In this document: piece after piece, positions 27,701 to 54,059 of the stretch
Layout: the number at the start of each line of letters is the position of its first letter
Numbering within the stretch: position 1 is the stretch's first letter
From: Agelas oroides
Taxonomy: Eukaryota > Porifera > Demospongiae > Agelasida > Agelasidae
Direction: 5' to 3'
DNA: 64,000 nucleotides
NCBI GenBank assembly: GCA_949130485.1
Contig: OX422192.1
Span: forward strand, 5,340,085-5,404,084
The notes under the pieces: model-generated
The model's input: only the letters and a program-made list of their open reading frames with translations
Databases searched by the model: none
Told to the model about the DNA's origin: nothing
Translations under genes and position numbers: made by a program

Positions 27701-30700
27701 AGCACTTTTAACCACTGTGGTGGTCCTTTGAAGCTGGTGCAGGGCTGTTTAAGTACAAGGAAAGATGGCGAAAGCCGTTTTCACCACTGTGGAGGTCTTA
27801 TGAAGCTTGTGTATGCCTGCTTAAGTGCCAGGAAAAATCGAGAAAGCCGTTTTCACCACTGTGGGGGTCTTGATAGGCCCGTGCCGGCTTGTTTAACTGG
27901 CAGGAATGATCGAGAAAACAGGTTTCACCACTGAGGAGGTTCTCTGAAGCTCGTGCAGGCCTATTTAGGTGCCAAGAGTGTTCGAGAAAGCACTTTTCAC
28001 CACTGTGGAGATCCTGTGAAGCTGGTGCAGGGCTGTTTAAGTGCCAGGAAAGATGGCGAAAGCCGTTTTCACCACTGTGGAGGTCTTGAGAAGCTCGTGC
28101 AGGTCTCTTTATATGCCAGGAAAGATCGAGAAAGCCGTTTACACCTCTGTGGTGATCTTGTGAAGCTCGAGAAGACCTGTTTAAGTGCCAGGAATGATCG
28201 CGAAAGCCGTTTTCACCACTGTGGAGGTCTTGTGAAGCTCGTGAAGGCCTGTTTAAGTGCCAGGAATGATCGAGAAAGCCGTTTTCACCACTGTGTGAGT
28301 CTTGTTAGGCCCGTGCCGGCCTGTTTAACTGGCAGGAATGATCGAGAAAGCAGGTTTCACCACTGAGGAGGTTCGCTGAAGCTCGTCCAGGCCAGTTTAG
28401 GTGTCAAGAAAGATCGAGAAAGCACTTTTAACCACTGTGGAGGTTCTGTGAAGCTGGTGCAGTACTGTTTAAGTGACAGGAAAGATCTACAAATCAGTTT
28501 TCTCCACTGTAGAGGGACTGTGAAGCTCGTGCAGGCTTGTTTAAGTGGTAGGAAAAGTCGCACAAAGCAGTTTTCCCCACTGTAGAGGTCCTGTGAAGCT
28601 CATGCAGGCCTTTTTATGTGCTAGGAATGATCGAGAAAGCTGTTTTCACCACTGTGGGGGTCTTGTGAAGCTCGTGTAGGCCAGCTTAAGTGCCAGGAAA
28701 GATCGAGAAAGCCGTTTTCACCACTGTAGGGATCTTGTTAGGCCCCGTGCCGGCCTGTTTAACTGGCAGGAAAGATCGAGAAAGCACTTTTCACCACTGT
28801 GGAGGTCCTGTGAAGCTGGTGCAGGACTGTTTAAGTGACAGGAAAGATCTACAAATCCGTTTTCACCACAGTGGAGGCCTTGTGAAGCTGGTGCAGGTCT
28901 GTTTAAGTGCAAGGAAAGATCGACAAAGGCGTTTTCACCACTGTGGTTATCTTGTTAGGCCCGTGCCGGCCTGTTTAACAGGCAGGAACGATTCAGAAAG
29001 CAGGTTTCACCACGGAGGAGGTTCTCTGAAGCTCGTGCAGGCCTGTTTACGTGTCAAGAAAGTTCCAGAAAGTACTTTTCACCAATGGGGAGGTCCTGTG
29101 ATGCTGGTGCAGGGCTGTTTAAGTGCCAGCAAAGATCACGAAAGCCGTTTTCACCACGGTGGAGGTCTTGTGAAGCTCGTACATGCCTGTTAATGTGCTA
29201 GGAAAGATCGAGAAGCTGTTTTCATCACTATGGAGGTCCTGTGAAGCTGGTGCAGGACTGTTTAAGTGGCAGGAAAGATCTACAAATCAGTTTTCTCCAC
29301 TGTGGAGTGACTGTGAAGTTCGTGCAGGCCTGTTTAAGTGGTAGGAAAGATCGCACAAAGCAGTTTTCTCCACTGTGGAGGTCCTGTGAAACTCGTGCAG
29401 GCCTTTTTATTTGCCAGGAATGATCGAGAAAGCCGTTTTCACCACTGCGGAGGTTTTGTTAGGCCCGTGTCGGCCTGTTTAACTGGCAGGAATGGTCGAG
29501 AAAGCAGGTTTCACCACTAAGGAGGTTCTCTGAAGCTCGTGCAAACCTGTTTATGTGTCAAGAATGTTCGAGAAAGCACTTCTCACTACTGTGGAGGTCC
29601 AGTGAAGCTGGTGCAGGGCTGTTTAAGTGCCAGGAAAGATGGAGAAAGCCGTTTTCACCTCTGTGGAGGTCTTGTGAAGCTCATGAAGGCCTGTTTAAGT
29701 GCCAGGAGAGATCGAGAAAGCCGTTTTTACCACTGTGGAGGTTTTGTGAAGCTCGTGAAGGCCTCTTTAAGTGCCAGGAAAGATCGAGAAAGCTGTTTTC
29801 ACCACTGTGCAGGTCTGGTGAAGCTCGTACAGGCCTCTTAATGTGATAGGAAAGATCAAGATAGCCGTTTTCACAACAGTGGAGGTCTTGTGAAGCTCGC
29901 GGAGGCCTGTTTTTAGTGCCAGAAAGGACGCTGTTTTCGCTACGGAGGATATTCTCTGAAGCTTGTTCAGGCCTGTTTAGGTACCAAGAATTTTCGACAA
30001 AACACTTTTCACCACTGTGCAGGTCCTTTTAAGCCATGTCGGCCTGTTTAACTGGCAGGAATCATCGAGAAAGCAGCTTTCACCACTGAGGAGGTTCGTG
30101 CAGGCTTGTTTAGGTGCCAAGAATGTTGAAGAAAGCACTTTTCACCACTGTGCAAGTCCTGTTAAGCCCGTGCCGGCCGGTTTAAGTGGCAGGAATGATC
30201 AAGAAAACAGCTTTCTCCACTGTAAAGATATGGTAAAGCTCGTTCAAGCCTGTTGAAGTGGCAGGAAAGAACGAGAAAGCAGGTTTCACCACTGAGGAGG
30301 TTCTCTGAAGCTCGTGCAGGCCTGTTTAGGTGTCAAGAAAGTTCGAGAAAGCACTTTTCACCACTGTGGAGGTGCTTTGAAGCTCGCGCAGGGCTGTTTA
30401 AGTGCCAGGAGAGATCGAGAAACCCGTTTTCACCTCTGAGGAGGTCTTGTGAAGCTCGCGGAGGCCTGTTTTTAGAGCCAGAAAGGACGAAGAAAGCTGT
30501 TTTCGCCACTGAGGATATTCTCTGAGGCTCGTTCAGGCCTGTTTAGGTACCAAGAATGTTCGACAAAACACTTTTCACCACTGTGCAGGTCCTTTTAAGT
30601 CATGCCGGCCTGTTTAACTGGCAGGAATCATCGAGAAAGCAGTTTTCACCACTGAGGAGGTTCACTGAGGCTCGTGCAGGTCTGTTTAGGTGCCAAGAAT

Positions 30701-33700
30701 GTTGAAGAAAGCACTTTTAACCACTGTGCAAGTCCTGGTAAGCCCGTACTGGTCGGTTGAAGTGGCAGGAATGATCGAGAAAGCAGTTTACTCCACTGTC
30801 GAGGTTTGGTGAAGCCTGCGAAGGCAAGTTTAAGGCGACAAGAATGCTCGATAAAGCAGTTTTCACCACTGTGCAGGTCCTGTTAAGCCCGTGCCGGCCT
30901 GTTTCAGTGGCAGGAATGATCGAGAAAGCAGCTTTCTCCACTGTAAAGGTATTATGAAGCTCGTGTAGGCCTGTTTAAGTGGCAGGAAAGAACGAGAAAG
31001 CAGTTTTCACCACTGTGGAGGTCTTGTGAAGCTCGTGAAGGCCTGTTTATGTGATAGGAAAGATCGAGATAGCCGTTTTCACCACAGTGGTGGTCTTGTG
31101 AAGCTCGAGGAGGCCTGTTTAAGTGCCAGGAAAGATCGAGAAAGCCGTTTTCACCACTGTGGAGGTCTTGTGAAGCTCGTGTAGGCCTGTTTAAGTGCCA
31201 GGAATGATCGAGAAAGCCGTTTTCACAACTGTGGAGGTCTTGTGAAGCTCGTGAAGGCCTGTTTAAGTGCCAGGAAAGATCGAGAAAGCCGTTTTCACCA
31301 CTGTGGAGGTCTTGTGAAGCTCGCGGATAACTGTTTTAGAGCCAGAAAGGACGAAGAAAGCTGTTTTCACCACTTAGGATATTCTCTGAAGCTCGTTCAG
31401 GCCTGTTTTGGCACCAAGAATGTTCGAGAAAGCAGTTTTCACCACTGAGGAGATGCTCTGAGGCTCTTGCAGGCTTGTTTAGGTGCCAAGAATGTTGTAG
31501 AAAGCACTTTTCACCACTGTGCAAGTCCTGTTAAGCCCGTGCCGGCTGGTTTAAGTGGCAGGAATGATCAAGAAAGCAGCTTTCTCCACTGTGAAGGTAT
31601 TGTGAAGCTCGTGCAAGGCTGTTGAAGTGGCAGGAAAGAACGAGATAGCAGGTTTCACCACTGTGGAAGTTCTCTGAAGCTCGTGCAGGCTTGTTTAGGT
31701 GTCAAGAAAGTTCGAGAAAGCCCTTTTCACCACAGTGGAGGTGCTTTGAAGCTCGTGCAGGGCTGTTTAAGTGCCAGGAAAGATCGAAAAAGCTGTTTTC
31801 ACCACTGTGGAGTTCTTGTGAAGCTCGTGAAGGCCTGTTTATGTGATAGGAAAGATCGAGACAGCCGTTTTCACAACTGTGGAGGTCATGTGAAGCTCGC
31901 GGAGGCCAGGCAAAAAGGACGAAGAAAGCTGTTTTCGCCACTGAGGATATTCTCTGACGCTCGTTCAGTCCTCTTTAGGTACCAAGAATGTTCGACAAAA
32001 TACTTTTCACCACTGTGCAGGTCCTGTCAAGCCATGCCGGCCTGTTTAACTGGCAGCAATGGTCGAGAAAGCAGTTTTCACCACTGAGGAGGTTCTCTGA
32101 GGCTCGTGCAGGCTTGTTTAGGTGCCAAGAATGTTGAAGAAAGCACTTTTCACCACTATGCAAGTCCTGTTAAGCCCATGCCGGCAGGTTTAAGTGGCAG
32201 GAATGATCAAGCAAGCAGCTTTCTCCACTGTAAAGGTATTGTGAAGCTCGTGCAAGCCTGTTGAAGTGTCAGGAAAGAACGAGAAAGCAGGCTTCACCAC
32301 TGAGGAGGTTCTCTGAAGCTCGTGCAGGGCTGTTTAAGTACCAGGAAAGATGGAGAAAGCCGTTTTCACCTCTGTGGAGGTCTTGTGAAGCTCGTGAAGG
32401 CCTGTTTAAGTGCCAGGAAAGATTGAGAAAGCCGTTTTCACCACTGTGGAGGTCTGGTGAAGCTCGTGAAGGCCTGTTTAAGAGCCAGGAACGATCGAGA
32501 AAGCCGTTTTCACCACTGTGGAGGTCTTGTGAAGCTCGTACAGGCCTCTTAATGTGATAGGAAAGATCGAGATAGCCGTTTTCACAACTGTGGAGGTCTT
32601 GTGAAGCTCGCGGAGGCCTGTTTTAGAGCCAGAAAAGACGAAGAAAGCTGTTTTCGCCACTGAGGATATTCTCTGAAGCTCGTTCAGGCCTGTTTAGGTA
32701 CCAAGAATGTTCGTCAAAGCACTTTTCACCACTGTGCAGGTCCTTTTAAGCCATGCCGGCCTGTTTTACTGGCAGGAATCATCGAGAAAGCAGCTTTCAC
32801 CACTGAGGAGGTTCTCTGAGGCTCGAGCAGGCTTGTTTAGGTGCCAAGAATGTTGAAGAAAGCACTTTTCACCACTGTGCAAGTCCTGTTAAGCCCGTAC
32901 CGGCTGGTTTAAGTGGCAGGAATGATCAAGAAAGCAGCTTTCTCCACTGTAAAGGTATTGTGAAACTCGTGCACGCCAGTTGAAGTGGCAGGAAAGAACG
33001 AGAAAGCAGGTTTCACCACTGTGGAGGTTCTCTGAAGCTCGTGCAGGCCTGTTGAGGTGTCAAGAAAGTTCAAGAAAGCACTTTTCACCACTGTGGAGGT
33101 GCTTTGAAGCTCGTGCAGGGCTGTTTAAGTGCCAGGAAAGATCGAGAAACCCGTTTTCACCTCTGAGGAGGTCTTGTGAAGCTCGCGGAGGCCTGCTTTA
33201 GAGCCAGAAAGGACGAAGAAAGCTGTTTTCGCCACTGAGGATATTCTCTGAAGCTCGTTCAGGCCTGTTTAGGCACCAAGAATGTTCGAGAAAGCAGTTT
33301 TCACCACTGAGGAGGTGCTCTGAGGCTCTTGCAGGCTTGTTTAGGTGCCAAGAATGTTGAAGAAAGCACTTTTCACCACTGTGCAATTCCTGTTAAGCCC
33401 GTGCCGGCTGGTTTAAGTGGCAGGAATGTTCAAGAAAGCAGCTTTCTCCACTGTAAAGGTATTGTGAAGCTCGTGCAAGGCTGTTGAAGTAGAAGGAAAG
33501 AACGAGAAAGCAGGTTTCACCACTGTGGAGGTTCTCTGAAACTCGTGCAGGGCTGTTTAAGTGCCAGGAAAGATCGAGAAAGCTGTTTTCACCACTGTGG
33601 AGTTCTTGTGAAGCTCGTGAAGGCCTGTTTATGTGATAGGAAAGATCGAGACAGCCGTTTTCACAACTGTGGAGGTCTTGTGAAGCTCGCGGAGGTCTGT

Positions 33701-36700
33701 TTTAGAGCCAGAAAGGATGAAGAAAGCTGTTTTCGCCACTGAGGATATTCTCTGAAGCTCGTTCAGGCCTCTTTAGGTACCAAGAATGTTCGACAAAATA
33801 CTTTTCACCGCTGTGCAGGTCCTGTTAAGCCATGCCGGCCAGTTAAACTGGCAGCAATGGTCGAGAAAGCAGTTTTCACCACTGAGGAGGTTCTCTGAGG
33901 CTCGTGCAGGCTTGTTTAGGTGCCAAGAATGTTGAAGAAAGCACTTTTCACCACTATGCAAGTCCTGTTAAGCCGATGCCGGCAGGTTTAAGTGGCAGGA
34001 ATGATCAAGAAAACAGCTTTCTCCACTGTAAAGGTATTGTGAAGCTCATGCAAGCCTGTTGAAGTGGCAGGAAAGAACGAGAAAGCAGGTTTCACCACTG
34101 AGGAGGTTCTCTGAAGCTCGTGCAGGGCTGTTTAAGTGCCAGGAAAGATGGAGAAAGCCGTTTTCATCTCTGTGGAAGTCTTGTGAAGCTCGTGAAGGCC
34201 TGTTTAAGTGCCAGGAAAGATCGAGAAAGACGTTTTCACCACTGTGGAGAAGCTCGTACACGCCTCTTAATGTGATAGGAAAGATCGAGATACCCGTTTT
34301 CACAACTGTGGAGGTCTTGTGAAGCTCGCGGAGGCCTGTTTTAGAGCCAGAAAGGACGAAGAAAGCTGTTTTCGCCACTGAGGATATTCTCTGAAGCTCG
34401 TTCAGGCCTGTTTAGGTACCAAGAATGTTCGACAAAACACTTTTCACCACTGTGCAGGTGCTTTTAAGCCATGCCGGCCTGTTTAACTGGCAGGAATCAT
34501 CGAGAAGGTAGTTTTCACCACTGAGGAGGTGCTCTGAGGCTCGTGCAAGCTTGTTTAGGTGCCAAGAATGTTGAAGAAAGCACTTTTCACCACTGTGCAA
34601 GTCCTGTTAAGCCCGTGCCGGCCGGTTTAAGTGGCAAGAATGTTCAAGAAAGCAGCTTTCTCCACTGTAAAGGTATTGTGAAGCTCGTGCAAGGCTGTTG
34701 AAGTGGCAGTAAAGAACGAGAAAGCAGGTCTCACCACTGTGGAGGTTCTCTGAAGCTCGTGCAGGCCTGTTTAGGTGTCAAGAAAGTTCGAGAAAGCACT
34801 TTTCACCACTGTGGAGGTGCTTTGAAGCTCGCGCAGGGCTGTTTAAGTGCCAGGAGAGATCGAGAAACCCGTTTTCACCTCTGAGGAGGTCTTGTGAAGC
34901 TCGCGGAGGCCTGCTTTAGAGCCAGAAAGGACGAAGAAAGCTGTTTTCGCCACTGAGGATATTCTGTGATGCTCGTTCAGGCCTGTTTAGGTACCAAGAA
35001 TGTTCGATAAAAACACTTTTCACCACTGTGCAGCTCCTGTTAAGCCATTCCGGCCTCTTTAACTGGCAGGAATGATCGAAAAAGCAGGTTTCACCACTGT
35101 GGAAGACCTGTGAAGCTCGTTCCGGCCTGTTTCAGTGGTAGGAAAGATCGCACAAAGCAATTTTCTCCACTGTGGAGGTCCTGTGAAGCTGGCGCAGGAC
35201 TGTTTAAGTGCTGGCGCAGGACTTATTAAGTGCCTGGAAAGATCTCCAAATCAGTTTTCTCCACTATGGAGTGACTGTGAAGCTCGTGCAGGCCATTTTA
35301 TGTGTCAGGAATGATCGAGAAAGCCGTTTTCACAACTGTGGAGGTTCTCTGAGGCTCTTGAAGGTCTGTTTAAGGGCCAGGAAAGAGCGAGAAAGCAATT
35401 TTCACCACTGACGAACTTCTCTGAGGCCCGTCCAGGCCAGTTTATGTGCCAAGAAAGTTCGTGAAAGCACTTTTCACAACTGTGCAGGTCTTGTTAGGCC
35501 CGTGCCAGCCAGTTTAACTGACAGGAATGATCGGGAAAGCAGGTTTCACCACTGAGGAGGTTCTCTGAAGCTCGTGCAGGGCTGTTTAAGTGCCAGGAAA
35601 GATGGAGAAAGCCGTTTTCACCACTGTGGAGGTCTTGTGTAGCTCGTGAAGGCCTGTTTAAGTGCCAGGAAAGATCGAGAAAGCCGTTTTCACCACTGTG
35701 GAGGTCTTGTGAAGCTCGTGAAGGCCTGTTTAAGTGCCAGGAAAGATCGGGAAAGCCGTTTTCACAACTGTGGAGGTCTTGTGAAGCTCGCGGAGTCCTG
35801 TTTTTAGAGCCAGAAAGGACGAAGAAAGCTGTTTTCGCCACTGAGGATATTCTCTGAAGCTCGTTCAGGCCTGTTTAGGTACCAAGAATGTTCGACAAAA
35901 CACTTTTCACCACTGTGCAGGTCCTTTTAAGCCATGCCGGCCTGTTTAACTGGCAGGAATCATCGAGAAAGCAGTTTTCACCACTGAGGAGGTTCACTGA
36001 GGCTCGTGCAGGCCTGTTTAGGTGCCAAGAATGGTGAAGAAAGCACTTTTAACCACTGTGCAAGTCCTGTTAAGCCCGTACCGGTCGGTTTAAGTGGCAG
36101 GAATGATCGAGAAAGCAGTTTACTCCTCTGTCGAGGTTTGGTGAAGCCTGCGAAGGCAAGTTTAAGGCGACAAGAAAGCTCGATAAAGCAGTTTTCACCA
36201 CTCCCGTGCCGGCCAGTTTCTGTGGCAGGAATGATCAAGAAAGCAGCATTCCCCACTGTAAAGTTATTGTGAAACACGTGCAGACCTGTTGAAGTCGCAG
36301 GGAAGAACAAGAAAGCAGGTTTCACCACTGAGGAGGTTCTCTGAAGCTCGTGCAGGCCTGTATAAGTGATACGAAAGATCACACAAAGACATTTTCACCA
36401 CTGTGGAGATCTTGTGAAGCACTGTGGAGGTCTTGTGAAGCTCGTGAAGGCCTGTCTATGTGCTAGGAAAGATCAAGAAAGCTGTTTTCACCACTGTGCA
36501 GGTCTTGTGAAGCTCGTGAAGGCCTGTTTATGTGATAGAAAAGATCGAGATAGCCGTTTTCACAACTGTGGAGGTCTTGTGAAGCTCGCGGAGAACTGTT
36601 TCAGAGCCAGAAGGACGAAGAAAGCTGTTTTCGCCACTGAGGATATTCTCTGAAGCTCGTTCAGGCCTGTTTAGGTACCAAGAATGTTCGAGAAAGCAGT

Positions 36701-36724
36701 TTTCACCACTGAGGAGGTGCTCTG
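24724..36724 (+). repeat. 72-bp satellite array, plus orientation, block 3
   Basis: About 12 kb of satellite starting at the second CCGG. From about 29900 a distinct variant appears: GAAGAAAGCTGTTTTCGCC followed by GAGGATATTCTCTGA. It recurs near 30487, 31349, 31919, 32636, 33207, 33714, 34357, 34930, 35818 and 36613, always next to TTTAGGTACCAAGAATG. Spacing varies between about 500 and 900 bp, so it marks an irregular higher-order repeat. The block ends at CTCTG (36720-36724), the target of the CACAG-ended element. The longest open stretches here (up to 250 codons at 26945-27697) are repeat translations. Confidence 0.97.
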
Positions 36725-36737
36725 CACAGCAAAAACA

Positions 36738-36835
36738 AGGGTATGAAGTTCATACCAAAAGAGTATGACCTTCATCCCAACGAATTTCATACCTATGGTA
36801 TGAATTGAGCGAGTATGACTTTCATACTTTCAGCG
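36738..36835. repeat. Subterminal GGTATGAA/TTCATACC palindromes, left end
   Basis: Several short palindromic units built on GTATGAA and TTCATAC lie just inside the left terminus. The same motif forms a denser array inside the other end (41490-41725). Repeated subterminal palindromes are often transposase-binding sites in such elements; that role is inferred. Confidence 0.75.
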
Positions 36836-36965
36836 GTGCGTAGTTTATACCGCAGATGGGAGAAGACGTTCGTCATACCGAAGCTGCGTGTGAACTTCAT
36901 GCCCCGCTGCAAGCGCTGTTATTAGGTCAAAGGTCAAAAGCGTCGGTGGAAGTGAAATCTATTTA

Positions 36966-37344
36966 GGCCATACCAAATTGATTTTATGTTTCACGGATTA
37001 CTTAGGTCAGAAACATGACCCGGTAGGCAGGCAAAAAAATCAAAATAAAAATGACTGAACTTCTCATGAATTTAATTAGATACCACTCAGTAACACAAAA
37101 CTGCTCGCCATCCTCCATTCTTGCTACGTGGTGAGTACTTAGCCTTGTTCCCAGGCCTTCGCACGTTCGTCGCTTGCTGCACGATAATTTGTAGTGCTAT
37201 CGACGAATGCGCGAAGGCCTGGGAACGAGGCTAGAGAGTACTGGATTACGTGTGAATATTAATTGCATTTTTACATTTTTTTTTCAATTTTCAAAAAAAA
37301 GACCCGGCCGGATCCGTGAAACATAAGATCAATTTGGTATGGCC
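36966..37344. mobile_element. Harbinger-like MITE nested in the CACAG element
   Basis: A 379-bp insertion with inverted ends GGCCATACCAAATTGAT of about 33 bp, flanked by TTA on both sides (36963-36965 and 37345-37347). A 3-bp TTA/TAA target duplication and GG-starting ends fit the PIF/Harbinger superfamily (Tourist-like MITE). It has no coding capacity. It must have inserted after the host element formed. Confidence 0.8.
37141..37232. repeat. Hairpin of about 92 bp inside the Harbinger-like MITE
   Basis: Arms of about 32 bp beginning AGCCTTGTTCCCAGGCCTT and ending in its near complement flank a short loop of about 28 bp. It may be a second nested fold-back element or a structural part of the MITE. 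I see no clear target duplication. Confidence 0.75.
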
Positions 37345-37348
37345 TTAT

Positions 37349-37670
37349 GCGTTTAAGAAATTTTATATTCTGCATGCATGATCATGAATCCATATTTCGA
37401 TGCAACTTAGCCATGGAGCAGTGATCCCCGTCTCTCAAGACAGATTTCTCATGCAGGTAAGTCAATAGCTGATGAGACATTGTGTTGAAAATTTGGATTT
37501 ATCTGTGTACCTTCTTAGGGGTGGATGGGAATTGTGCTAAACATGCATGGTTAATTTGTCACAAACTAGCAAATGCAATGAATGTTCCCATGCTTCCATC
37601 CTCCCACAAGGGTTGTCATTTTTATGGGCACTATAGTCACAGTAGCAACTGAAGTCAGCCTAGAAACTGT
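37349..37670. other. Unassigned interior of the CACAG element
   Basis: Non-repetitive, AT-rich sequence between the nested MITE and the 186-bp repeat. I see no convincing reading frame, motif or RNA gene in it. Confidence 0.5.
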
Positions 37671-37683
37671 ATGTAAAATAGAT

Positions 37684-39205
37684 TTTCCCATTCCAGTCCA
37701 GCACAGGTGTACCAGAGTTACAAACCATGCAATTTGATATTAATATGAATGTACAGTCAGAGTGGAGTTGATTGATACCTAGTTTGTCCTATTTGAAGTA
37801 GTTTTTGTCTCGTACGTTTGAAAAGGCTAAGGCGATTGACCATCAAGTTGATATTCGGTTGGGTGTAAACTACAATTTCCCGTTCCAGTCCAGCACACAG
37901 TGTTCCAGAGTTACAAACCAATTTGATATTATGAATGTACAGGTAGAGTGGAGTTGATTGATACCTAGTTTGTCCTATTTGAAGTAGTTTTGGTCCCGTA
38001 GGTTTGAAAAAGCTAAGGCGATTGACCATCGAGTTGATATTCGGTTGGGTGTAAACTACAATTTCCCGTTCCAGTTCAGCACACAGTGTGCCAGAGTTAC
38101 AAACCAATTTGATATTATGAATGTACAGGTAGAGTGGAGTTGATTGATACCTAGTTTGTCCTATTTGAAGTAGATTTGGTCTCGTAGGTTTGAAAAGGCT
38201 AAGGCGATTGACCATCAAGTTGATATTCGGTTGGGTGTAAACTACAATTTCCCGTTCCAGTCCAGCACACAGTGTTCCAGAGTTACAAACCAATTTGATA
38301 TTATGAATGTACAGGTAGAGTGGAGTTGATTGATACCTAGTTTGTCCTATTTGAAGTAGTTTTGGTCCCGTAGGTTTGAAAAAGCTAAGGCGATTGACCA
38401 TCGAGTTGATATTCGGTTGGGTGTAAACTACAATTTCCCGTTCCAGTTCAGCACACAGTGTTCCAGAGTTACAAACCAATTTGATATTATGAATGTACAG
38501 GTAGAGTGGAGTTGATTGATACCTAGTTTGTCCTATTTGAAGTAGATTTGGTCTCGTAGGTTTGAAAAGGCTAAGGCGATTGACCATCGAGTTGATATTC
38601 GGTTGGGTGTAAACTACAATTTCCCGTTCCAGTCCAGCACACAGTGTTCCAGAGTTACACAACAATTTGATATTATGAATGTACAGGTAGAGTGGAGTTG
38701 ATTGATACCTAGTTTGTCCTATTTGAAGTAGATTTGGTCTCGTAGGTTTGAAAAAGCTAAGGCGATTGACCATCGAGTTGATATTCGGTTGGGTATAAAC
38801 TACAATTTCCTGTTCCAGTCCAGCACACAGTGTTCCAGAGTTACAAACCAATTTGATATTATGAATGTACAGGTAGAGTGGAGTTGATTGATACCTAGTT
38901 TGTCCTATTTGAATTAGTTTTGGTATCATAGGTTTGGAAAAGCTAAGGCGATTGACCATCGAGTTGATATTTGGTTGGGTGTAAACTACAATTTCCCGTT
39001 CCAGTCCAACACATAGTGTGCCAGACTTACAAACCAATTTGATATTATGAATGTACAGGTAGAGTGGAGTTGATTGATACCTAGTTTGTCCTGTTTGAAG
39101 TAGTTTTGTACTCATTGGTTTGAAAAAGCTAAGGCGATTTAGTATCGAAATGATATTTGGTTGGGTGTAAACTGCATTTTTCCGTTCCATTCCTATGGTT
39201 CCTAC
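37684..39205. repeat. 186-bp tandem repeat, about eight units
   Basis: The landmark GAATGTACAG recurs at 186-bp steps (GTACAG at 37751, 37937, 38123, 38309, 38495, 38681, 38867 and 39053). Inner units differ by a few per cent; the outermost are more diverged. Because 186 is 62 codons, the minus strand stays open for 483 codons (37757-39208), with a 62-residue unit containing YTQPNI, SMVNRL and QSTPLYLY. Variants among units are mostly amino-acid changing, the translation resembles no family I know, and it has no associated gene structure. I treat it as a minisatellite within the transposon. Confidence 0.93.
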
Positions 39206-40492
39206 CATGTCTAATTTTTAATCTATTTATTCATCTTTACTGTTTCTCCTTACAAGACCACATGGGCAAAGGTAGACAACCTGGGTGTTGTCTGTGGAAG
39301 ACTGAAGTTGCTGTCGTTATGGAGATATTGGACTGAGTCTATTTAGTTGTTGACAGCAGTGTTTTTGTTTTTTGTATGTTCAGTTCCTGTCATCATTTGC
39401 TCATTCTGTCATGCATTGGTAAAAGTCTGGGCCGAACCATAAGTTATGGATTACTACCACTGTCAGTGCGTGAGACAGTCCTCAACAAGTCAGCTCCACC
39501 TATTCGTGCGTGTGCGCGTGCGCAATTGTTTGAACTTTGACCTTGAGCGCGCTCGCGCTAGAAGTGTGATACTTTTGAAAATGAAGCGCGAGTGAAGGAA
39601 GGAGGTGTGCCACGGAACTCGGTCTGAACAGGACAACGGTGAGCAGTGTTTCTCGCAAAATTTATCTTGCTAGTACGTAGAAAGCTGGGAAATATGTCAG
39701 AATAGTATACAGTCACTTGTAGCCCTGTGACATTCTCATATGCTGTATATGAAGCTCTTAAAAACGCTCTTGATGGTGTGGATTTTGATTTCTGTTTCAG
39801 TACATATGGTGCTGGACTTCTGATGTCATCTCCCTCCTCGTACATATAGATGAGGTGAGCCTGGGATATTGTTACAAATTATGACGTATGAATTCATCCT
39901 GTCATTCTTCCTCATTACGGCACTCAGACTGTGTATCACGGAACAAGAGCAAAGCAGGTACAGTACACTTTAACACACATACATACAGACATAAGTACAC
40001 CTCCTATCTTTCCGTCTGACAGTGTACCCGCAACTTTTCTGTCGAGTCTATATCGAAGAACAAGAGCCAGTGAAGAATTAAAGGTACAGTTCCCTTTTGT
40101 CTCGTACTGCACCCTCATTTTTCTGTCGCCTATTGTAACCTTGTTCTTCTTTCTGTCCCATACTCCAATTCCACATTCTTTCTGTTTCATAGTACACTTC
40201 CTTCCTCTTTGATATTGCTGTCTCCCCACACACGTACACACAAAGGTAGACAGAAGCCAGCCTGATGTATTGCCACAGTGAATATTTGCTCCTTACATTC
40301 TTCTTCACCACTTTTACATCCAGGGTCTATCACAGAACAAAAGCCAAATAAAGAATTAGAGGTACAGTTCTTTCTCTCTCATAGTGCACCCTTGTCCTTT
40401 CTGTCCCATAACTGTACCCACATTCTTTGCACGATATTCTTACCCCTCGTATATACACACTGGGTAGATTGAGGCCAGCCTGGGTATGGACT
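39206..40492 (+). other. Element interior with duplicated exon-like segments
   Basis: Non-satellite sequence with several short segments bounded by AG and GT and sharing one theme. 39928-39957, 40047-40083 and 40324-40361 each carry a GAACAA-AGCC core followed by GTACAG. The clearest, 40324-40361, is 38 bp and ends AAAGAATTAGAG/GT. A matching 38-bp segment lies on minus at 42162-42199, in the other half of the split element. They may be duplicated small exons of a decayed gene, reading roughly T-E-x-x-P-x-K-E-L-E; the second copy is out of frame. I cannot name the gene. Confidence 0.45.
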
Positions 40493-41476
40493 TTACCTGC
40501 CACTGAAAAAGGCCTGCACGAGCTTCACAGGACCTCAAGAGTGGAGAAAATTGCTTTGTGCGATCTTTCCTACCTCTTAAACAGGCCTGCACGAGCTTCG
40601 CAGGTCTTCCACAGTGGTGAAACCTGCTTTCCCGATCATTCCTGTCAGTTAAACTGGCCGGCACGGGCCTATCAAGAACTGCACAGTGGTGAAAAGTGCT
40701 TTCACGAACTTTGTTGGCACATAAACTGGCCTGCACGGGCCTCAGAGAACTTCCTCAGTGGTGAAAATTGCTTTTTCGGTCTTTCCTGGCCCTTAAACAG
40801 GCCTTCACGATCTTCACAAGACCTCGACACTGATGCAAACGGCTTTCTCGATCATTCCTGGCACATAAAAAGGCCTGCACGAGCTTCACAGTCACTCCAC
40901 AGTGGAGAAAACTGATTTGGAGATCTTTCCAGGCACTTAATAAGTCCTGCGCCAGCACTTAAACAGTCTTGCACCAGGTTCACAGGACAATCCACAGTGG
41001 AGAAAATTGCTTTGTGCGATCTTTCCTACCACTTAAATAGGCCGGCACGAGCTTCACATGTTGAAAACGGCTGTCTCGATGTTTCCTATCACATAAACAG
41101 GCCTTCACGAGCTTCACAAGAACTCCACAGTGGTGAAAACAGCTTTCTCGATCTTTCCTGGCACTTAAACAGCCCTGCACGAGCTTCAAAGCACCTCCAC
41201 TGTGGTGAAAAGGGCTTTCTCAAACTTTCTTGACACCTAAACAGGCCTGCATGAGCTTCAGAGAACCTCCACAGTGGTGAAACTTGCTTTCTCGTTCTTT
41301 CCTGCCACTTCAACAGCCTTGCACGAGCTTCACAATAACTTTACAGTGGAGAAAGCTGCTTTCTTGATCATTCCTGCCACTTAAACCAGCTGGCACGGGC
41401 TTAACAGGACTTGCACAGTGGTGAAAAGTGCTTTCTTCAACATTCTTGGCACCTAAACAAGCCTGCAAGAGCCTCA
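40493..41476 (-). repeat. Inverted satellite segment of 984 bp
   Basis: Satellite monomers run on minus here while flanking blocks are on plus. Its right end (complement TGAGGCTCTTGCAGG) continues the monomer broken at 36724. Its left end (complement TTTTTCAGTGGCAGGTAA) joins cleanly to the plus block that resumes at 42241 (AGATTGAACGGCCG), compare the intact monomer at 44045-44080. Both joins therefore restore normal monomers if 40493-42240 is flipped. Confidence 0.93.
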
Positions 41477-42240
41477 CACAGCAAAAACAATGGTATGAAG
41501 TTCATACCAAAATAGGTATGATTTCGCTTTTTACACTGAGCATACCAAAAACGGTATGAATTTCATACCAAAAATGGTATGAATTTCATACCAAAAACGG
41601 TATTAATATCATACCAAAGCGGTATGAATATCATACCAAAACGGTATGAATTTCATACCAAAAAGGGTATGATCATCACACAAGTAGATAGTATGATTTT
41701 CATCCATGAATTGGTATGGTTGTCATGCTGCTTATAGCAGTATAATCTATGCATTGTACATTCAGCTTGTCCTTGCTGTTGAATGACAGTATTGTGGCAA
41801 AACGGATTATAATGCACACAAGGAAATGCACTGACACCAAAAGCAAGTAAACCTTAGTCTACTTAGTTCAAGTATAAAGTCACTTGTTGCTTTTGTACTT
41901 TCTGCAGCATAGATATCTGCATCTGTGGGGAAACAAGACAGTACTATATCATTGGGCAGAAATAAAAGGGAAAGTGCATGTATGGGCTCTGGGAAAGGAG
42001 AGAGTAGGGTACAGTGGAGAAACAAAACACAAGTTTATGTGTGTGTATAAGTATACATGTGCATGCCGTACCTGTACTTCTTCACTTTGTTGTTGTTCTG
42101 TGTCTGTGTGAGTGTGTGTGTGCAGAGGAGGGAAGAGAGAAAACGAGGAAGGAACATCTACCTCTAATTCTTTGCTTGGCTCGCTTTCCGTGTTTGACTC
42201 TGAACGAGGGAGTAATAGGAAAGGAAGAGGTTATCATTGT
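41477..42240 (-). mobile_element. CACAG-ended transposon, right 0.76 kb, inverted
   Basis: Begins CACAGCAAAAACAATGG and carries GGTATGAATTTCATACC-type palindromes. In its original orientation this is the right end of the element starting at 36725. On minus it contains the 38-bp exon-like segment 42199-42162, ending AAAGAATTAGAG before GT, and an AG-bounded stretch near 41930 that stays open for about 40 codons (ADIYAAESTKATSDF). The product is not recognised. A TG-rich tract lies at 42091-42122. Confidence 0.85.
41490..41725. repeat. Cluster of GGTATGAATTTCATACC palindromes
   Basis: At least five copies of a 17-18 bp palindrome separated by AAAA-type spacers, at the terminus of the inverted element half. 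They are candidate transposase-binding or hairpin-forming subterminal repeats. Confidence 0.88.
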
Positions 42241-44509
42241 AGATTGAACGGCCGTTTTCACCATTGTGGAGGTCTTGTGAAGGTCGTGGAGGCCTGTTTA
42301 ACAGCCAGCAAAGACCGAGAAAGCAGTTTTCACCACTGTGGAGGGTCGCTTAAGCTCGTGCTGGCATGTTTAAGTGGCAGGAATGATCGAGAAACCAGTT
42401 TTCACCAGTGTGTCAGTCTTGTGAAGCTCGTGAAGGCCTGTTTAAGTGCCACGAAAGATCGAGAAAGCCGATTTCACCACTGTGGATATCTTGTGAAGCT
42501 CGTGCAGGCCTGTTCATGTGCTAGGAAAGATCGAGAAAGCCGTTTTGACTACTGTGCAGCTCTTGTAAAGCTCGTGAAGGCCTGTTTAAGAGCCAGGAAA
42601 GACCGAGAAAGCAGTTTTCACCACTGAGGAGGTTCTCTGAGGCACGTGCAGGCCTGTTTATGTGCCAAGAATGTTGAAGAAAGCACTTTTAACCACTGTG
42701 CAAGTCCTGTTAAGCCCGTGCCCGACGGTTTAAGTGGCAGGAATGATCGAAAAAGCAGTTTTCACCATTATGGAGGTCCTGTGAAGCTGGTGCAGGGCTG
42801 TTTAAGTGGCAGGAAAGATCTACAAATCAGTTTTCTACACTGTGGAGTGACTGTGAAGCTCGTGCAGGTCTGTTTAAGTGGTAGGAAAGATCGCACACAG
42901 CAGTTTTCTCCACTGTGGAGGTCCTGTGAAGCTCGTGCAGGCCTTTGTATGTGCCAGGAATGATCGAGAAAGCCGTTTTCAACACTGTGGAGGTCTTGTT
43001 AGGCCCGTGCCGGCCTGTTTAACTGGCAGGAATGATCGAGAAAGCAGGTTTCACCACTGAGGAGGTTCTCTGAAGCTCGTGCAAGCCTGTTTAGGTGTCA
43101 AGAAAGTTCGAGAAAGCACTTTTCACCACTGTGGAGGTCCTGTGAAGCTGGTGCAGGGCTGTTTAAGTGCCAGGAAAGATCGAGAAAGCACTTTTCACCA
43201 CTGTGGAGGTCTTGTGAAGCTCGCCAGAAAGGACGAAGAAAGCTGTTTTCGCCACTGAGGATATTCTCTGTAGCTCGTTGAGGCCTGTTTAGGTGCCAAG
43301 AATGTTCAACAAAACACTTTTCACCACTGTGCAGGTCCTGATAAACCTTTTTAACTGGCAGGAATGATCGAGAAAGCAGATTTCACCACTGTGGAAGATC
43401 TGCGAAGCACATGCCGGCCTGTTTTTGTGGTAAGAAAGATTGCACAAAGCAATTTTCTCCACTGTGGAGGTCCTGTGAAGCTCGTGCAGGCCTTTGAGTG
43501 CCAGGTAAGATCGAGAAAGCCGTTTTCACCACTGTGGAGGACTTATGAAGCTTGCAGAGGCCTGTTTTAGAGCCAGAAAGGACGAAGAAAGCTGTTTTCG
43601 CCACTGAGGATATTCTCTGCAGCTCGTTCAGGCCTGTTTAGGTACCAAGAATGTTCGACAAAACACTTTTCACCACTGTGCAAGTCCTGTTAAGCCATGC
43701 CGGCCTGTTTAAATGGCAGGAATGAGCGAGAAAGCAGCTTTCTCCGCTGTAAAGGTATTGTGAAGCTCGTGCAAGCCTGTTGAAGTGTCAGGAAAGAACG
43801 AGAAAGCAGTTTTCACCATTGAGGAGGTTCTCCGAAGCTTGTGCAGACAGTTTATGTGCCAGGAAAGCTCGAGAAATCAGTTTTCACCACTGTGCAGGTC
43901 CTGTTTCAGTGGCAGGAATGATCAAGAAAGCAGCTTTCTCCACTGTGCAGGTCTTGTGAAGCTCGAGCAGGCCTGTTTAAGTGCCAGGAAAGATCGAGAA
44001 AGCCGTTTTCACCACTGTGGAGGTCCTGTGAAGCTCGTGCAGGCCTTTTTCACTGGCAGGTAAGATCGAGAAAGCCGTTTTCACCACTGTGGTGGTTTTG
44101 TGAAGCTCGTGGAGGACTGCTTTAGAGCCAGAAAGGACGAAGAAAGCTGTTTTCGCCACTGAGGATATTCTCTGAAGCTCATTCTGGCCTGTTTATGTGC
44201 AAAGAATGTTGAAGAAAGCACTTTTACCCACTGTGCAAGTCCTGTTAAGCCAGTACCGGTCGGTTTAAGTGGCAGAAATGATCGAGAAAGCAGTTTACTC
44301 CACTGTCGAGGTTTGGTGAAGCCTGCGAAGGCAAGTTTAAGGCGACAAGAAAGCTCGATAAAGCAGTTTTCACCACTGTGCAGGTCCTGTTAAGCCCGTG
44401 CCGGCCTGTTTCAGTGGCAGGAATGATCAAGAAAGCAGCTTTCCCCACTGTAAAGTTATTGTGAAGCACGTGCAGACCTGTTGAAGCGGCAGGAAAGAAC
44501 GAGAAAGCA

Positions 44510-45768
44510 GGTTTCACCACTGAGGAGGTTCTCTGAAGCTCGTGCAGGCCTGTATAAGTGATACGAAAGATCACACAAAGCAATTTTCACCACTGTGGAG
44601 ATCTAGTGAAGCTGGTGCAGGACTGTTTAAGTGCCAGGAAAGATCGCGTAAGCCGTTTACACCACAGTGGTGGTCTTGTGAAGTTTGAGCAGGCCTGTTT
44701 AAGTGCCAGGAAAGATCGAGAAAGAGGTTTTCACCACTGTGGAGGTCTTGGAGTAGGCCTGTTTGAGTGCCAGGAAAGATCGAGAAAGTCGTTTTCACCA
44801 CTGTGGAGGTCTTGTGAAGCTCGTGTAGGCTTGTTTAAGTGCCAGGAATGATCGAGAAAGCCGTTTTCATCACTGTGGAGGTCTTGTGAAGCTCGTGAAG
44901 GCCTGTCTATGTGCTAGGAAAGATCGAGAAAGCCGTTATCACCACTGTGCAGTTCATGTCAAGCTCGTGAAGGCCTGTTTATGTGACAGGAAAGATCGAG
45001 ATAGCCGTTTTCACAACTGTGGAGGTCTTGTGAAGCTCACGGAGAACTGTTTTAGAGCCAGAAAGGACGAAGAAAGCTGTTTTCGCCACTGAGGATACTC
45101 TCTGAAGCTCGTTCAGGCCTGTTTAGGTACCAAGAATGTTCGACAAAACACTTTTCACCACTGTGCAGGTCCTTTTAAGCCATGCCGGCCTGTTTAACTG
45201 GCAGGAATCATCGAGAAAGCAGTTTTCACCACTGAGGAGGTTCTCTGAGGCTCATGCAGGCTTGTTTAGGTGCCAAGAATGTTGAAGAAAGCAGTTTTCA
45301 CCACTGTGCAAGTCCTGTTATGCCTGTGCCGGCCGGTTTAAGTGGCAGGAATGATCAAGAAAGCAGCTTTCTCCACTGTAAAGGTATTGTGAAGCTCGTG
45401 CAAGCCTGTTGAAGTGGCAAGAAAGAATGAGAAAGCAGGTTTCACCACTGAGGAGGTTCTCTGAAGCTCGTGCAGTCCTGTATAAGTGATACGAAAGATC
45501 ACACAAAGCAATTTTCACCACTGTGGAGATCTTGTGAAGCTGGTGCAGGACTGTTTAAGTGCCAGGAAAGATCGCGTAAGCCGTTTACACCACAGTGGTG
45601 GTCTTGTGAAGCTTGAGCAGGCCTGTTTAAGTGCCAGGAAAGATCGAGAAAGAGGTTTTCACCACTGTGGAGGTCTTGGAGTAGGCCTGTTTGAGTGCCA
45701 GGAAAGATCGAGAAAGTCGTTTTCACCACTATGGAGGTCTTGTGAAGCTCGTGCAGGCCTTTTTCAGT
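44510..45768 (+). repeat. Higher-order duplication, offset 928 bp
   Basis: The segment 44510-44840 reappears at about 45438-45768 with few changes. Both copies contain GTATAAGTGATACGAAAG, the CGCGTAAGCCG variant and the internally deleted monomer GGAGGTCTTGGAGTAGGCC. Confidence 0.85.
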
Positions 45769-48214
45769 GCCAGCTAAGATCGAGAAAGCCGTTTTCACCA
45801 CTGTGGTGGTCTTGTGAAGCTCGTGGAGGCCTGCTTTAAAGCCAGAAAGGACGAAGAATGCTGTTTTCGCCACTGAGGATATTCTATGAAGCTCATTCAG
45901 GCCTGTTTAGGTACCAAGAATGTTCCCTCTTTCACCACTGTGCAGGTCCTGTTAAGCCATGCCGGCCTGTTTAACTGGCAGGAGTGATCAAGAAAGCAGC
46001 TTTCTCCACTGTAAAGGTATTGTGAAGATCGTGCAAGGCTGTTGAAGTGGCAGGAAAGAACGAGAAAGCAGGTTTCACCACTGAGGAGGTTCTCTGAAGC
46101 TCGTGCAGGGCTGTTTAAGTGCCAGGAAAGATGGAAAAAGCCGTTTTCACCTCTGTGGAGGTCTTATGAAGCTCGTGAAGGCCTGTTTAAGTGCCAGGAA
46201 AGATCGAGAAAGCCGTTTTCACCACTGTGGAGGTCTTGTGAAGCTCGTGAAGGCCTGTTTAAGTGCCAGGAAAGATCGAGAAAGCCGTTTTCACCACTGT
46301 GGAGGTCTTGTGAAGCTCGTACAGGCCTGTTAATGTGCTAGGAAAGATCTCGAAAGCTGTTTTCACCACTGTGGAGTTCTTGTGAAGCTCGTGAAGGCCT
46401 GTTGATGTGATAGGTAAGATCGAGATAGCCGTTTTCACAACTGTGGAGGTCTTGTGAAGCTCGCGGAGAACTGTTTTAGAGCCAGGAATGACGAAGAAAG
46501 CTGTTTTCGCCACTGAGGATATTCTCTGAAGCTCGTTCAGGCCTGTTTAGGTACCAAGAATGTTCGACAAAACACTTTTCACAACTGTGCAGGTCCTTTT
46601 AAGCCATACCGGCCTGTTTAACTTGCAGGAATCATCGAGAAAGCAGTTTTAACCACTGAGGAGGTTCTCTGAGGCTCGTGCAGGCTTGTTTAGGTGCCAA
46701 GAATTTTGAAGAAAGCACTTTTCACCACTGTGCAATTCCTGTTAAGCTCGTGCCAGCCGGTTTAAGTGGCAGGAATGATCAAGAAAGCAGCTTTCTCCAC
46801 TGTAAAGGTATTGTGGACCTCGTGCAAGCCTGTTGAAGTGGCAAGAAAGATCGAGAAGTCCGTTTTCACCACTGTGGAAGTCTTGTGAAGCTCGTGAAGG
46901 CCTGTTTATTTACTAGGGAAGATCGAGAAAGCCGTTTTCACCACTGTGCAGGTCTTGTGAAGCTCGTGAAGGCCTGTTTAAGGGGCCGGAAAGATCGAGA
47001 AAGCAGTTTACTACACTGTGGATGTCCTGTGACGCTCGTGCAGGCCTGTTCAAGTGACAGCAAAGGTGGAGAAAGCAATCTTTACCACTGTGGTGGTTTC
47101 GTGAAGATCGTGCAGGCCTATTTAAGTGGCACGAATGGTCGACAAAGCAGTTTTCAGCACTGAGCAGGTCTTGCGAAGATCGTGAAAGCCAGTTTAAGTG
47201 CCAGGAAAGACCGAGAAAGCAGTTTTCACCACTGATGAGGTTCTCTGAGGCTCGTGCAGGCCTGTTTAGATGCCAAGAATGTTGAAGAAAGCTCTTTTAA
47301 CCACTGTGCATGTCCTGCTAAGCCCGTGTTGCAGGAACGATCGAGAAAGCAGTTTTCTCCACGGTCGAGGTTTAGTGAAGCTCGTGAAGGCCAGTTAAGT
47401 GACAAGAAAGCTCGAGAAAGCAGTTTTCACCACTGTGCAGGTCCTGTTAAGCCCGTGCCGGCCTGTTTCAGTGGCAGGAATGATCGAGAGCGCAGCTTTC
47501 TCCACTGTGGAGGTATTGTGAAGCTCGTGCAGGCCTGTTGAAGTGGCAGGAAAGAACGAGAAAGCAGTTTTCTCCACTGTAAAGGTATTGTGAAGCTCGT
47601 GCAGGCCTGTTGAAGTGGCAGGAAAGAACGAGAAAGCAGTTTTCACCACTGAGGAGGTTCTCTGAGGCTCGTGCAGGCCTGTTTAGATGCCAAGAATGTT
47701 GAAGAAAGCTCTTTTAACCACTGTGCATGTCCTGCTAAGCCCGTGTTGCAGGAATGATCGAGAAAGCAGTTTTCTCCACTATCGAGGTTTGGTGAAGCTC
47801 GTGAAGTCCAGTTAAGTGACAAGAAAGCTCGAGAAAGCAGTTTTCACCACTGTGCAGGTCCTGTTAAGCCCGTGCCGGCCTGTTTCAGTGGCAGGAATGA
47901 TCGAGAGCGCAGCTTTCTCCACTGTGGGGGGTTTTGTGAAGCTCGTGCAGGCCTGTTGAAGTGGCAGGAAAGAACGAGAAAGCAGTTTTCTCCACTGTAA
48001 AGGTATTGTGAAGCTCGTGCAGGCCTGTTGAAGTGGCAGGAAAGATCGAGAAAGCAGTTTTCACCACTGTGGAGGTCTTGTGAAGCTGGTGCAGGACTGT
48101 TTAAGTGCCAGGAAAGATCGCGTAAGCCGTTTACACCACAGTGGTGGTCTTGTGAAGCTCGAGCAGGCCTGTTTAAGTGGGAGGAAAGATCGAGAAAGAG
48201 GTTTTCACCACTGT

Positions 48215-49078
48215 GGAGGTCTTGGAAGCTCGTGTAGGCCTGTTTGAGTGCCAGCAAAGATCGAGAAAGCCGTTTTCACCACAGTGGAGGTCTTGTGAAG
48301 CTCGTGCAGGCCTATTGAAGTGGCAGGAAAGAACGAGAAAGCAGTTTTCACCACTGTGGAGGTGTTGTGAAGCTCGTGTAGGCCTGTTTCAGTGCCAAGA
48401 AAGGTCAAGAAAGCCGTTTTCACCACAGTGGAGGTCTTGTGAAGCTCGAGCAGGCCTGTTTAAGTGCCAGGAATGACCGAGAAAGCTGTTTTCACCACTG
48501 TGGAGGTCTTGGAAGCTCGTGTAGGCCTGTTTGAGTGCCAGCAAAGATCGAGAAAGCCGTTTTCACCACAGTGGAGGTCTTGTGAAGCTCATGCAGGCCT
48601 ATTGAAGTGGCAGGAAAGAACGAGAAAGCAGTTTTCACCACTGTGGAGGTGTTGTGAAGCTCGTGTAGGCCTGTTTCAGTGCCAAGAAAGGTCAAGAAAG
48701 CCGTTTTCACCACAGTGGAGGTCTTGTGAAGCTCGAGCATGCCTGTTTAAGTGCCAGGAATGATCGACAAAGCTGTTTTCACCACTGTGGAGGTCTTGGA
48801 AGCTCGTGTAGGCCTGTTTGAGTGCCAGCAAAGATCGAGAAAGCCGTTTTCACCACAGTGGAGGTCTTGTGAAGCTCGTGCAGGCCTATTGTAGTGGCAG
48901 GAAAGAACGAGAAAGCAGTTTTCACCACTGTGGAGGTGTTGTGAAGCTTGTGTAAGCCTGTTTCAGTACCAAGAAAGGTCAAGAAAGCCGTTTTCACCAC
49001 AGTGGAGGTCTTGTGAAGCTTGAGCAGACCTGTTTAAGTGCCAGGAATGATCGAGAAAGCTGTTTTCACCACTGTGGA
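48215..49078 (+). repeat. 287-bp higher-order repeat, three units plus partial
   Basis: GGAGGTCTTGGAAGCTCG occurs at 48215, 48502, 48789 and 49076, exactly 287 bp apart. Each unit is four monomers, one of them 1 bp short overall. The four monomers are distinct (GAGTGCCAGCAAAG, TATTGAAGTGGCAGG, TTTCAGTGCCAAGAAAGG and a GAATGA type), and the order is kept. The same unit recurs at 60007 and 60294. Confidence 0.93.
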
Positions 49079-49800
49079 GGTCTTGGAAGCTCGTGTAGGC
49101 CTGTTTGAGTGCCCGGAAAGATCGAGAAAGCCGTTTTCACCACTGTGGAGGTCTTGTCTTGTGAAGCTCATGAAGGCCCGGTTATGTGCCAGAAAAGACC
49201 GAGAAATCAGTTTTCACCACTGAGGAGGTTCTCTGAGGCTCGTGCAGGCCTGTTTAGGTGCCAAGAATGTTGAAGAAAGCTCTTTTAACCACTGTGCATG
49301 TCCTGCTAAGCCCGTGCCAGCCGGTTTCAGTGGCAGGAATGATCGAGAAAGCAGCTTTCTCCACTGTAGAGGTATTGTGAAGCTTGTGCAGGCCTGTTGA
49401 AGTGGCAGGAAAGAAGGAGAAAACAGTTTTCTCCACTGTGGAGGTCTTGGAAGCTCGTGTAGGCCTGTTTGAGTGCCCGGAAAGATCGAGAAAGCCGTTT
49501 TCACCACTGTGGAGGTCTTGTCTTGTGAAGCTCATGAAGGCCCGTTTATGTGCCAGAAAAGACCGAGAAATCAGTTTTCACCACTGAGGAGGTTCTCTGA
49601 GGCTCGTGCAGGCCTGTTTAGGTGCCAAGAATGTTGAAGAAAGCTCTTTTAACCACTGTGCATGTCCTGCTAAGCCCGTGCCAGCCTGTTTCAGTGGCAG
49701 GAATGATCGAGAAAGCAGCTTTCTCCACTGTAGAGGTATTGTGAAGCTTGTGCAGGCCTGTTGAAGTGGCAGGAAAGAAGGAGAAAACAGTTTTTTCCAC
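49074..49800 (+). repeat. Duplication with 364-bp offset
   Basis: Two consecutive copies of about 364 bp (landmark TTGGAAGCTCGTGTAGG at about 49083 and 49447). Each contains a 5-bp micro-duplication GTCTTGTCTTGTGAAG. That marker also occurs near 52408, 60519 and 60868, tying these distant segments to one ancestor. Confidence 0.85.
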
Positions 49801-50631
49801 TGTAGAGGTATTGTGAAGCTCGTGTAGGCCTGTGGAAGTGGCAGAAAAGAACGAGAAAGCTGTTTTCACCACTGTGGAGGTCTTGTGAAGCTGGTGCAGG
49901 ACTGTTTAAGTGCCAGGAAAGATCGTGTAAGCCGTTTACACCACAGTGCAGGTCCTGTTAAGCCCGTTCCGGTCTGTTTCAGTGGCAGGAATGATTGAGA
50001 AAGCAGCTTTCTCCACTCTAGAGGTATTGTGAAGCTTGTGAAGGCCTGTTGAAGTGGCAGGAAAGAACGAGAAAGCAGTTTTCACCACTGTGGAGGTGTT
50101 GTGAAGCTGGTGCAGGACTGTTTAAGTGCCAAGAAAGATCGCGTAAGCCGTTTACGCCACAGTGGTGGTCTTGTGAAGCTCGAGCAGGCCTGTTTAAGTG
50201 CCAGGAAAGATCGAGAAAGCCGTTTTCACCACTGTGGAGGTCTTGTGACGCTCGTGAAGGCCTTTTTAAGAGCCAGGAAAGATCGAGAAAGCAGTTTACT
50301 ACACTATGGAAGTCCTGTGAAGTTCGTGCAGGCCTGTTCAAGTGACAGCAAAGGTGGAGAAAGCAATCTTTACCACTGTGGTGGTTTCGTGAAGCCCGTG
50401 CAGGCCTGTTTAAGTGGTAGGAATGATCGACAAAGCAGTTTTCACCACTGAGCAGGTCTTGCGAAGCTCGTGAAGGCCAGTTTAAGTGCCAGGAAAGACC
50501 GAGAAAGCAGTTTTCACCACTGAGGAGGTTCTCTGAGACTCGTGCAGGCCTGTTTAGGTGCCAAGAATGTTGAAGAAAGCTCTTTTAACCACTGTGCATG
50601 TCCTGCTAAGCCCGTGCCGGTCGGTTTAAGT

Positions 50632-51567
50632 CATGAAAATATACACACCCCGTAAATATGGGCATCCCGGGGTTCCCATTTTTACCTGATTTTAGGGACC
50701 CCGTTGTGATTATAGGAACCCCCTTTAGCACGCAAACGGCTGATAACACGGATGATGCGTACAATACTGGTGGATACAGTCAGGTTCGTAAACATGTCAG
50801 GCGCAGAATGGCCAAGTATAAAGTGGCCAATTCAGGTATATACTAGAGATCATACCCGGACAGATGGAAGGTTCGTGCTAGAAATTGAAGATCGAGGGAT
50901 CAGTGAAGAACTGCAGTCTGACGAGCAAAGTGCTGATAGGAGATTTTCATTCACAGCTGCGTTTACAACTATACTTGCGCTATCAGCTGTACAAAGTTGC
51001 TGCATCAGCTCCAAGATTATAGCTAGTAGTGGCGCTAGGATAAGCTCCAGAGCAAAAGAAGAGAATCATAGCAAGTATTTTAAGTGCATCAATCTATGTT
51101 CTGATCTAATGTACCTGACATACACTCAAATTGGTATTGTTCAACCTGTAGCTAACTTTCCACTTCATTTTTGTACAATTGTACATGCCAGGATGTTTTG
51201 AAGTCGCAGTTTGTGTAGCGAATATACATTAGCTATGCGAAGCCTATTTTCATGTAAGTATAGAGGTACCCAGATGCCTACATTTACGTTTAAAATTTTA
51301 CCGACTACATAAGATGCCTATTTTCTCATGGGGATACCTGTACTCACAGGCGAAATCTCACTGTTTACATAGGGACGCCTATACTCATTGTTAAAATGCA
51401 ATGTTTGCATGGGGTGCCTATTTTCACAGCGGGATGCCCATAGTTACTGTGAAAATGGACACCCGGATGCCTATATTCACGTAAATATAGGCATCGGGAT
51501 GCCTATTTTTACGTGAAAATAGGCATCAGGGATGCGTATATTTGGGGATGCCTATATTCACTTGACA
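50632..51567. mobile_element. Non-autonomous element with Ginger-like right end
   Basis: About 936 bp of non-satellite DNA. The right end reads CTTGACA followed by CCGG, as in Ginger1 elements. The right 320 bp is a run of GGATGCCTATTTTCACG-like repeats in both orientations, similar in style to the GGATAC motifs of the element at 22686. The left end (TCATGAAAATATACACACCCC region) aligns imperfectly with the inverted right end and lacks TGTCA. The satellite string CCGGTCGGTTTAAGT is present on both sides (50617-50631 and 51568-51582). It is either a 15-bp duplication or a CCGG duplication with a left end overwritten by satellite. A 149-codon frame at 50752-51201 is not recognised. Confidence 0.78.
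51250..51567. repeat. Subterminal GATGCCTATWTTCAC repeats
   Basis: Eight or more diverged copies of GGATGCCTATTTTCACG in direct and inverted orientation fill the right end of the element, including the near-palindrome around 51480-51530. They could fold into long hairpins. Confidence 0.85.
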
Positions 51568-53214: not shown

Positions 53215-53721
53215 CTCTTTAACAACCGTAGGCTATTTACTGGAAGTGTTTATTAGGCTATGGATACCTTCCATGGTCCGTATTTTCACTTCTGCTTGGA
53301 GCTAGCACTGGAAACTTAACTCAAAGCTTTATTGACATATTCTCTGTAGGTTCATGACCTTGGACACACCCACTCATTAGCGAGCGTTCAATAGTCAGGG
53401 CCCTCCAACCAGAGAACGCTCCTCCGGACTAAAAGCTGCCTAAAATGCCAGAAATGGAGTCCCTACAAGGTGAAAGGAGCGTTTTCTACGCCCGTTTGTG
53501 CAAGAAAGCAGACAAATGGCCCACCCGGCATTGACCAAGGCTTTTCTACAGGCAGCTGCAACCGCCGCCATGCACTGTCAGCCAAAGCGGTGCACCCACC
53601 CACCTCCCCCTGTCCCACCCTTTCTGCTAGCGCAGAGCCTATCTTCAAAACGGATTGCGCCAACTGATAACATGCGGCCAAAATCTGACGACGCCATATG
53701 GCGTCATTGGTTGGTAAAGGG
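53215..53721. mobile_element. piggyBac-like MITE, copy 1
   Basis: 507 bp, TTAA on both sides, inverted ends of about 13 bp. It has no convincing coding capacity; reading frames of 65-102 codons on both strands are not conserved in any recognisable way. A palindrome, GACGCC-ATAT-GGCGTC, lies 16 bp from the right end at 53690-53705. Confidence 0.88.
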
Positions 53722-53725
53722 TTAA

Positions 53726-54055: not shown

Positions 54056-54059
54056 TTAA

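Follow-up and report, generated by a model that had tools for sequence, protein, structure and literature searches.

A satellite-embedded transposon of the sponge Agelas oroides split by a small inversion

Introduction

How can the two ends of what looks like a single transposon come to point in the same direction, with the satellite DNA between them reversed? The question is raised by a locus of Agelas oroides on contig OX422192.1 of the assembly GCA_949130485.1. "The window" refers here to the whole stretch that was analysed, 64,000 nucleotides long (positions 5,340,085 to 5,404,084). The original prediction, made from the letters of the window, was that a transposon had inserted into a satellite array and was afterwards broken by an inversion of the segment 40493–42240. 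This interpretation is right in substance: one element in the satellite, later split by a two-break inversion of 1760 bp, is very probably the correct description of the locus, and the inversion can be considered an ordinary small event that is well supported.

Arrangement of the locus

A motif search of the window places the CACAGCAAAAACAA termini at 36725 and 41477, both on the plus strand, in keeping with the observation that the two element ends point the same way. The strand map of the 72-bp satellite, with plus at 24726–36718, minus at 40493–41478 and plus again at 42241–50638, likewise agrees with the proposed reversal of the satellite between the ends. The left, larger part of the element (36725–40486, 3762 bp, plus strand) keeps its original orientation and contains a nested element and an array of 186-bp repeats. 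It is followed by the inverted segment, 40487–42246 (1760 bp, minus strand), with the breakpoints 40486/40487 and 42246/42247. The segment is composed of 990 bp of flipped 72-bp satellite (40487–41476, minus strand), including one copy of the TG duplication, and of the flipped right end of the element (41477–42246, 770 bp, minus strand), which has the terminal CACAGCAAAAACAA and 23-bp repeats with GGTATGAA/TTCATACC. Past the distal breakpoint the satellite continues in its original orientation (42247–50638, plus strand). Over both parts, and with the nested element of 379 bp counted in, the window copy measures 4532 bp.

Intact relatives and the ancestral order

The genome searched, 259 Mb in 141 contigs, contains at least 40 matches to the left end of the element, at least 40 to the right end, at least 45 to the left core, and at least 54 to the right core. 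Twenty fetched copies with both ends and one further copy, L041, make up the 21 relatives compared. The ends face each other in all 20 fetched copies, and 19 of them have the 14-base end at both termini with at most two mismatches, L023 being without one. In 18 of the 20 the complement of 42246 comes immediately after the base equivalent to 40486; the two others, L016 and L017, carry a 12-bp deletion just left of the join and then continue with the same sequence as the other relatives. In L041 the two pieces abut at 6129 and 6130, with zero bases between them. Flipping the segment restores the order known from the relatives, which establishes this order as the ancestral one and bears out the original reconstruction of an element with facing CACAG ends. 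The 20 copies were also examined for a continuation from position 40492 that does not resemble the complement of 42240, and none has one.

The direction of neighbouring ends was also surveyed. Among 100 of the 121 ends, with neighbours up to 16 kb apart, there are 26 facing, three diverging and two same-direction pairs. One of the same-direction pairs is the window copy. The other, on C8, with ends 15.9 kb apart, was rejected as a second case: it consists of two separate copies whose other ends were found in the right-end search, and it arises because 100 of the 121 ends are covered.

Across the genome, 32 sites match the intact junction with up to two mismatches, compared with 0 for the control. 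Each inverted junction has a single match when two to three mismatches are allowed, and both of these lie within the window. This bears on the reading in which part of the array was flipped by the assembler. Arrays of satellite DNA are easily misassembled, while false flips usually require inverted repeats on either side; in this case element meets satellite at both edges with no visible homology, and neither junction recurs elsewhere in the genome, which makes an assembly error quite unlikely.

Breakpoints and junctions

The inverted segment exceeds the 40493–42240 originally proposed by 6 bp at each end, so that the inversion stands and its coordinates have to be corrected. The sequence of the relatives at the join is GGGTA and then CAATCT or CATTCT, which matches 40486|42246 only, and the breakpoints 40486/40487 and 42246/42247 are preferred because the element sequence of the relatives decides between the two placements. 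The satellite is diverged near the distal join, and its similarity alone cannot separate them: the satellite-only score is 109.5 for the original placement and 108.5 for the corrected one, with offsets of -1 and 1, respectively. Inspection by eye of the window and of the junction sequences of the relatives revealed neither microhomology nor an inverted repeat at the junctions, and end joining therefore fits.

A 38-bp exon-like motif at 40324 had been expected to share one orientation with its copy at 42162 after the flip, and this was confirmed. Its ungapped matches in the flipped right part reach 28/38 and 25/38, against at most 19/38 in the right part as found, and the best further copy lies at 42162–42199. 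The next best matches, in the left part, amount to 23 and 21 bases, the opposite strand reaching 21. The motif is an internal repeat, with only the two copies in the flipped right part clearly above the control.

Satellite register and the order of events

The register of the satellite was determined with the segment flipped back and the element and one TG removed. The restored insertion site then has an offset of 0 and the distal join one of 1, against 39 bp in the arrangement as found; in a background of 400 satellite positions drawn at random from the window, 380 are at offset 0 and 97.75% are within 3 bp. The broken monomer at 36724 thus rejoins its continuation, as predicted. The rejoining of the monomers at 40493 and 42241 holds as regards their near-register, but the exact coordinates of that join are shifted by 6 bp.

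The flip also brings a TG after the far end of the element, equal to the TG that precedes 36725, so that facing ends and a TG duplication appear together as had been anticipated. A matching 2-bp duplication is present in 16 of the 20 relatives and missing from four. Since the TG duplication is visible only after the flip, the insertion preceded the inversion, in accordance with the order of events originally put forward; a transposon end and satellite were flipped together, which makes the event datable as post-insertion. Five of the 20 relatives (L010, L015, L023, L026, and L028), on five contigs, are embedded in the same 72-bp satellite. In all five the satellite has the same orientation on both flanks, and the register offsets are 0, 0, 17, 0, and 0. 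The exception is L023, which has a shortened end and is without a matching duplication.

One insertion or two

Two independent truncated insertions in opposite orientation could resemble one split element by chance. The family has many copies, some of them close to each other, such as those on C3 with ends 417 bp apart that belong to two neighbouring copies. Moreover, the closest relatives of the window copy differ between its outer left pieces and its right ones. Right of the join L041 is the closest of the 21 relatives (543/547 bases), and left of the join it ties with L026 as the closest (627/636 bases). The outer left pieces, which L041 does not have, are closest to L011/L013, L025, and L026. 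As the closest relative differs by piece, the pieces do not indicate one single nearest copy; such a pattern is compatible with exchange within the family or with its star-like spread, and is by itself no proof of one insertion. A single insertion is favoured because of the zero-gap join and the satellite register. Against two insertions, the bases at which the two parts stop are direct neighbours in the intact element, and the same flip restores both the satellite register and the TG duplication, so that a chance resemblance is highly improbable.

Mechanism of the inversion

With a single insertion, the element first lay in the satellite, flanked by the TG duplication. Very probably two double-strand breaks followed later: one cut the element at a distance of 770 bp from its right end, the other fell 990 bp out in the satellite, and the 1760 bp between them were rejoined in inverted orientation. 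The joining was probably of the non-homologous type, as suggested by the lack of microhomology and inverted repeats visible by eye. Inversions generated by aberrant transposition are known for other DNA transposons, and a transposase acting on mismatched ends might be invoked here as well. Neither breakpoint coincides with an element end, one being 770 bp inside and the other 990 bp outside, and this origin is extremely improbable. The two-break inversion is like any simple inversion of this kind repaired by end joining in being balanced, with zero element bases lost and no visible microhomology. The mechanism would be the same, and the difference is that here a transposon end and satellite were flipped together.

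The element and its family

The nested 379-bp element (36966–37344) carries inverted repeats (GGCCATACCAAATTGAT...) together with a TTA duplication of 3 bp. None of the 21 relatives shows a match to it, and its empty site was seen in all 20 that hold that region. The 186-bp tandem array (37672–39193, plus strand) comprises 8.2 copies. The relatives range in length from 2952 to 9105 bp (n = 20), the number of 186-bp units varies among the six examined, and nine of the 20 carry other, unmatched stretches of 230 to 2218 bp. Long open frames of up to 1209 aa in the 20 relatives are explained by the 62-codon unit, which in one of its six frames is free of stops. A coding role of the array was considered and rejected. 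In 281 units the substitutions at the three codon positions number 685, 734, and 574, with 229 gapped bases, and 260, 199, and 256 once sites variable in over 10% of the units are left out; no single position stands out, and the array is therefore treated as non-coding.

With its CACAG ends, 2-bp duplications and variable 186-bp array, the split element looks non-autonomous. Its placement near EnSpm/CACTA is provisional because no transposase with these ends was found. In one source, EnSpm/CACTA, Mirage, Chapaev, and Transib form a group with which CA..TG ends and 2-bp duplications agree, and the EnSpm/CACTA (CMC/CMCT) group is given CA..TG ends and duplications of 2–5 bp (PMC12730594). The split element, with CACAG...CTGTG and 2 bp, has these traits of the EnSpm/CACTA (CMC/CMCT) group, which are not exclusive to it. 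Animal TRC elements have 2-bp duplications and ends that start with CCC, according to two reports (PMC1636069, PMC4298943). The CACAG ends of the split element correspond neither to this CCC nor to the classical CACTA core. It resembles EnSpm/CACTA and animal TRC elements such as SmTRC1 in the CA..TG ends and 2-bp duplications (PMC12730594, PMC1636069, PMC4298943), and SmTRC1 also in having a tandem-repeat region and size variants, those of SmTRC1 being described as truncated (PMC1636069). It differs from all of them in its CACAG termini, and no transposase was found in the copies examined. Tetris, by the title of its report a foldback element, is a DNA transposon linked to a satellite of Drosophila virilis and is likewise tied to tandem repeats (PMC4079207); the terminal repeats of the split element, by contrast, are short, and its array is internal. 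A literature search for EnSpm with a 2-bp TSD and CACAG yielded nothing relevant by title.

The genome has 22 matches to Transposase_21. No facing pair of CACAG ends surrounds the five of these matches that were inspected (loci L029–L034, two of which cover the same match); L033 has two weak one-sided end matches. L034 was considered as an autonomous partner and rejected, as its Transposase_21 match lies between facing CACTACTAGAC ends at a distance of 8.0 kb from each other, which assign it to a different family. In six one-ended loci (L035–L040), the five reading frames scanned against Pfam contain no transposase. L036 has a reverse transcriptase (RVT_1), the remaining scanned frames gave chance-like low-complexity matches, and the frames of L037 are the antisense of the 186-bp array. 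Ends similar to CACAG occur elsewhere in the window, in a 447-bp element with long inverted repeats at 19761–20207, whose CACTGCAAAAACAA ends are close to those of the split element. A pair of CACTGCAAAAACAA ends 439 bp apart is also found within another copy of the split family (L037:2783–3221).

Other features of the satellite array

The satellite changes strand also at a near palindrome at 8741–8880 of the window, with its centre at 8800–8807. The arms match at 96% over the first 100 bp and at 79, 89, 88, and 83% over the next four, and at 70–76% thereafter; in 100 background samples the median is 73%, the 95th centile 85%, and the maximum 89%. This switch may be an older inverted duplication. 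The array is further interrupted by inserts. A non-satellite one of 2 kb (22686–24725) has GGATAT/ATATCC repeats near its edges, and parts of it look, by eye, as though they were coding on the minus strand. Another non-satellite insert, of 931 bp (50639–51569), has 32-bp repeats of the TAGGCATC type near its right edge. A third insert (53215–54565) contains, as judged by eye, two near-identical copies of about 510 bp, extending from TTAACTCTTTAAC to AAAGGGTTAA and lying about 330 bp apart.

Significance

A single case such as this alters no understanding of transposons or of satellites. One may speculate that short blocks of this satellite flip so often that embedded transposons serve as dated orientation markers, and that the switch at 8800–8807 is a second, older event. 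This broader view is rather unlikely; if true, most such flips would escape notice unless an element whose order is known had been inserted there. Small inversions are otherwise hard to detect in satellite arrays. The locus described here provides a clean, base-exact example of one, in which a transposon known from many intact relatives spans one of the breakpoints and so reveals the ancestral order and the relative timing.
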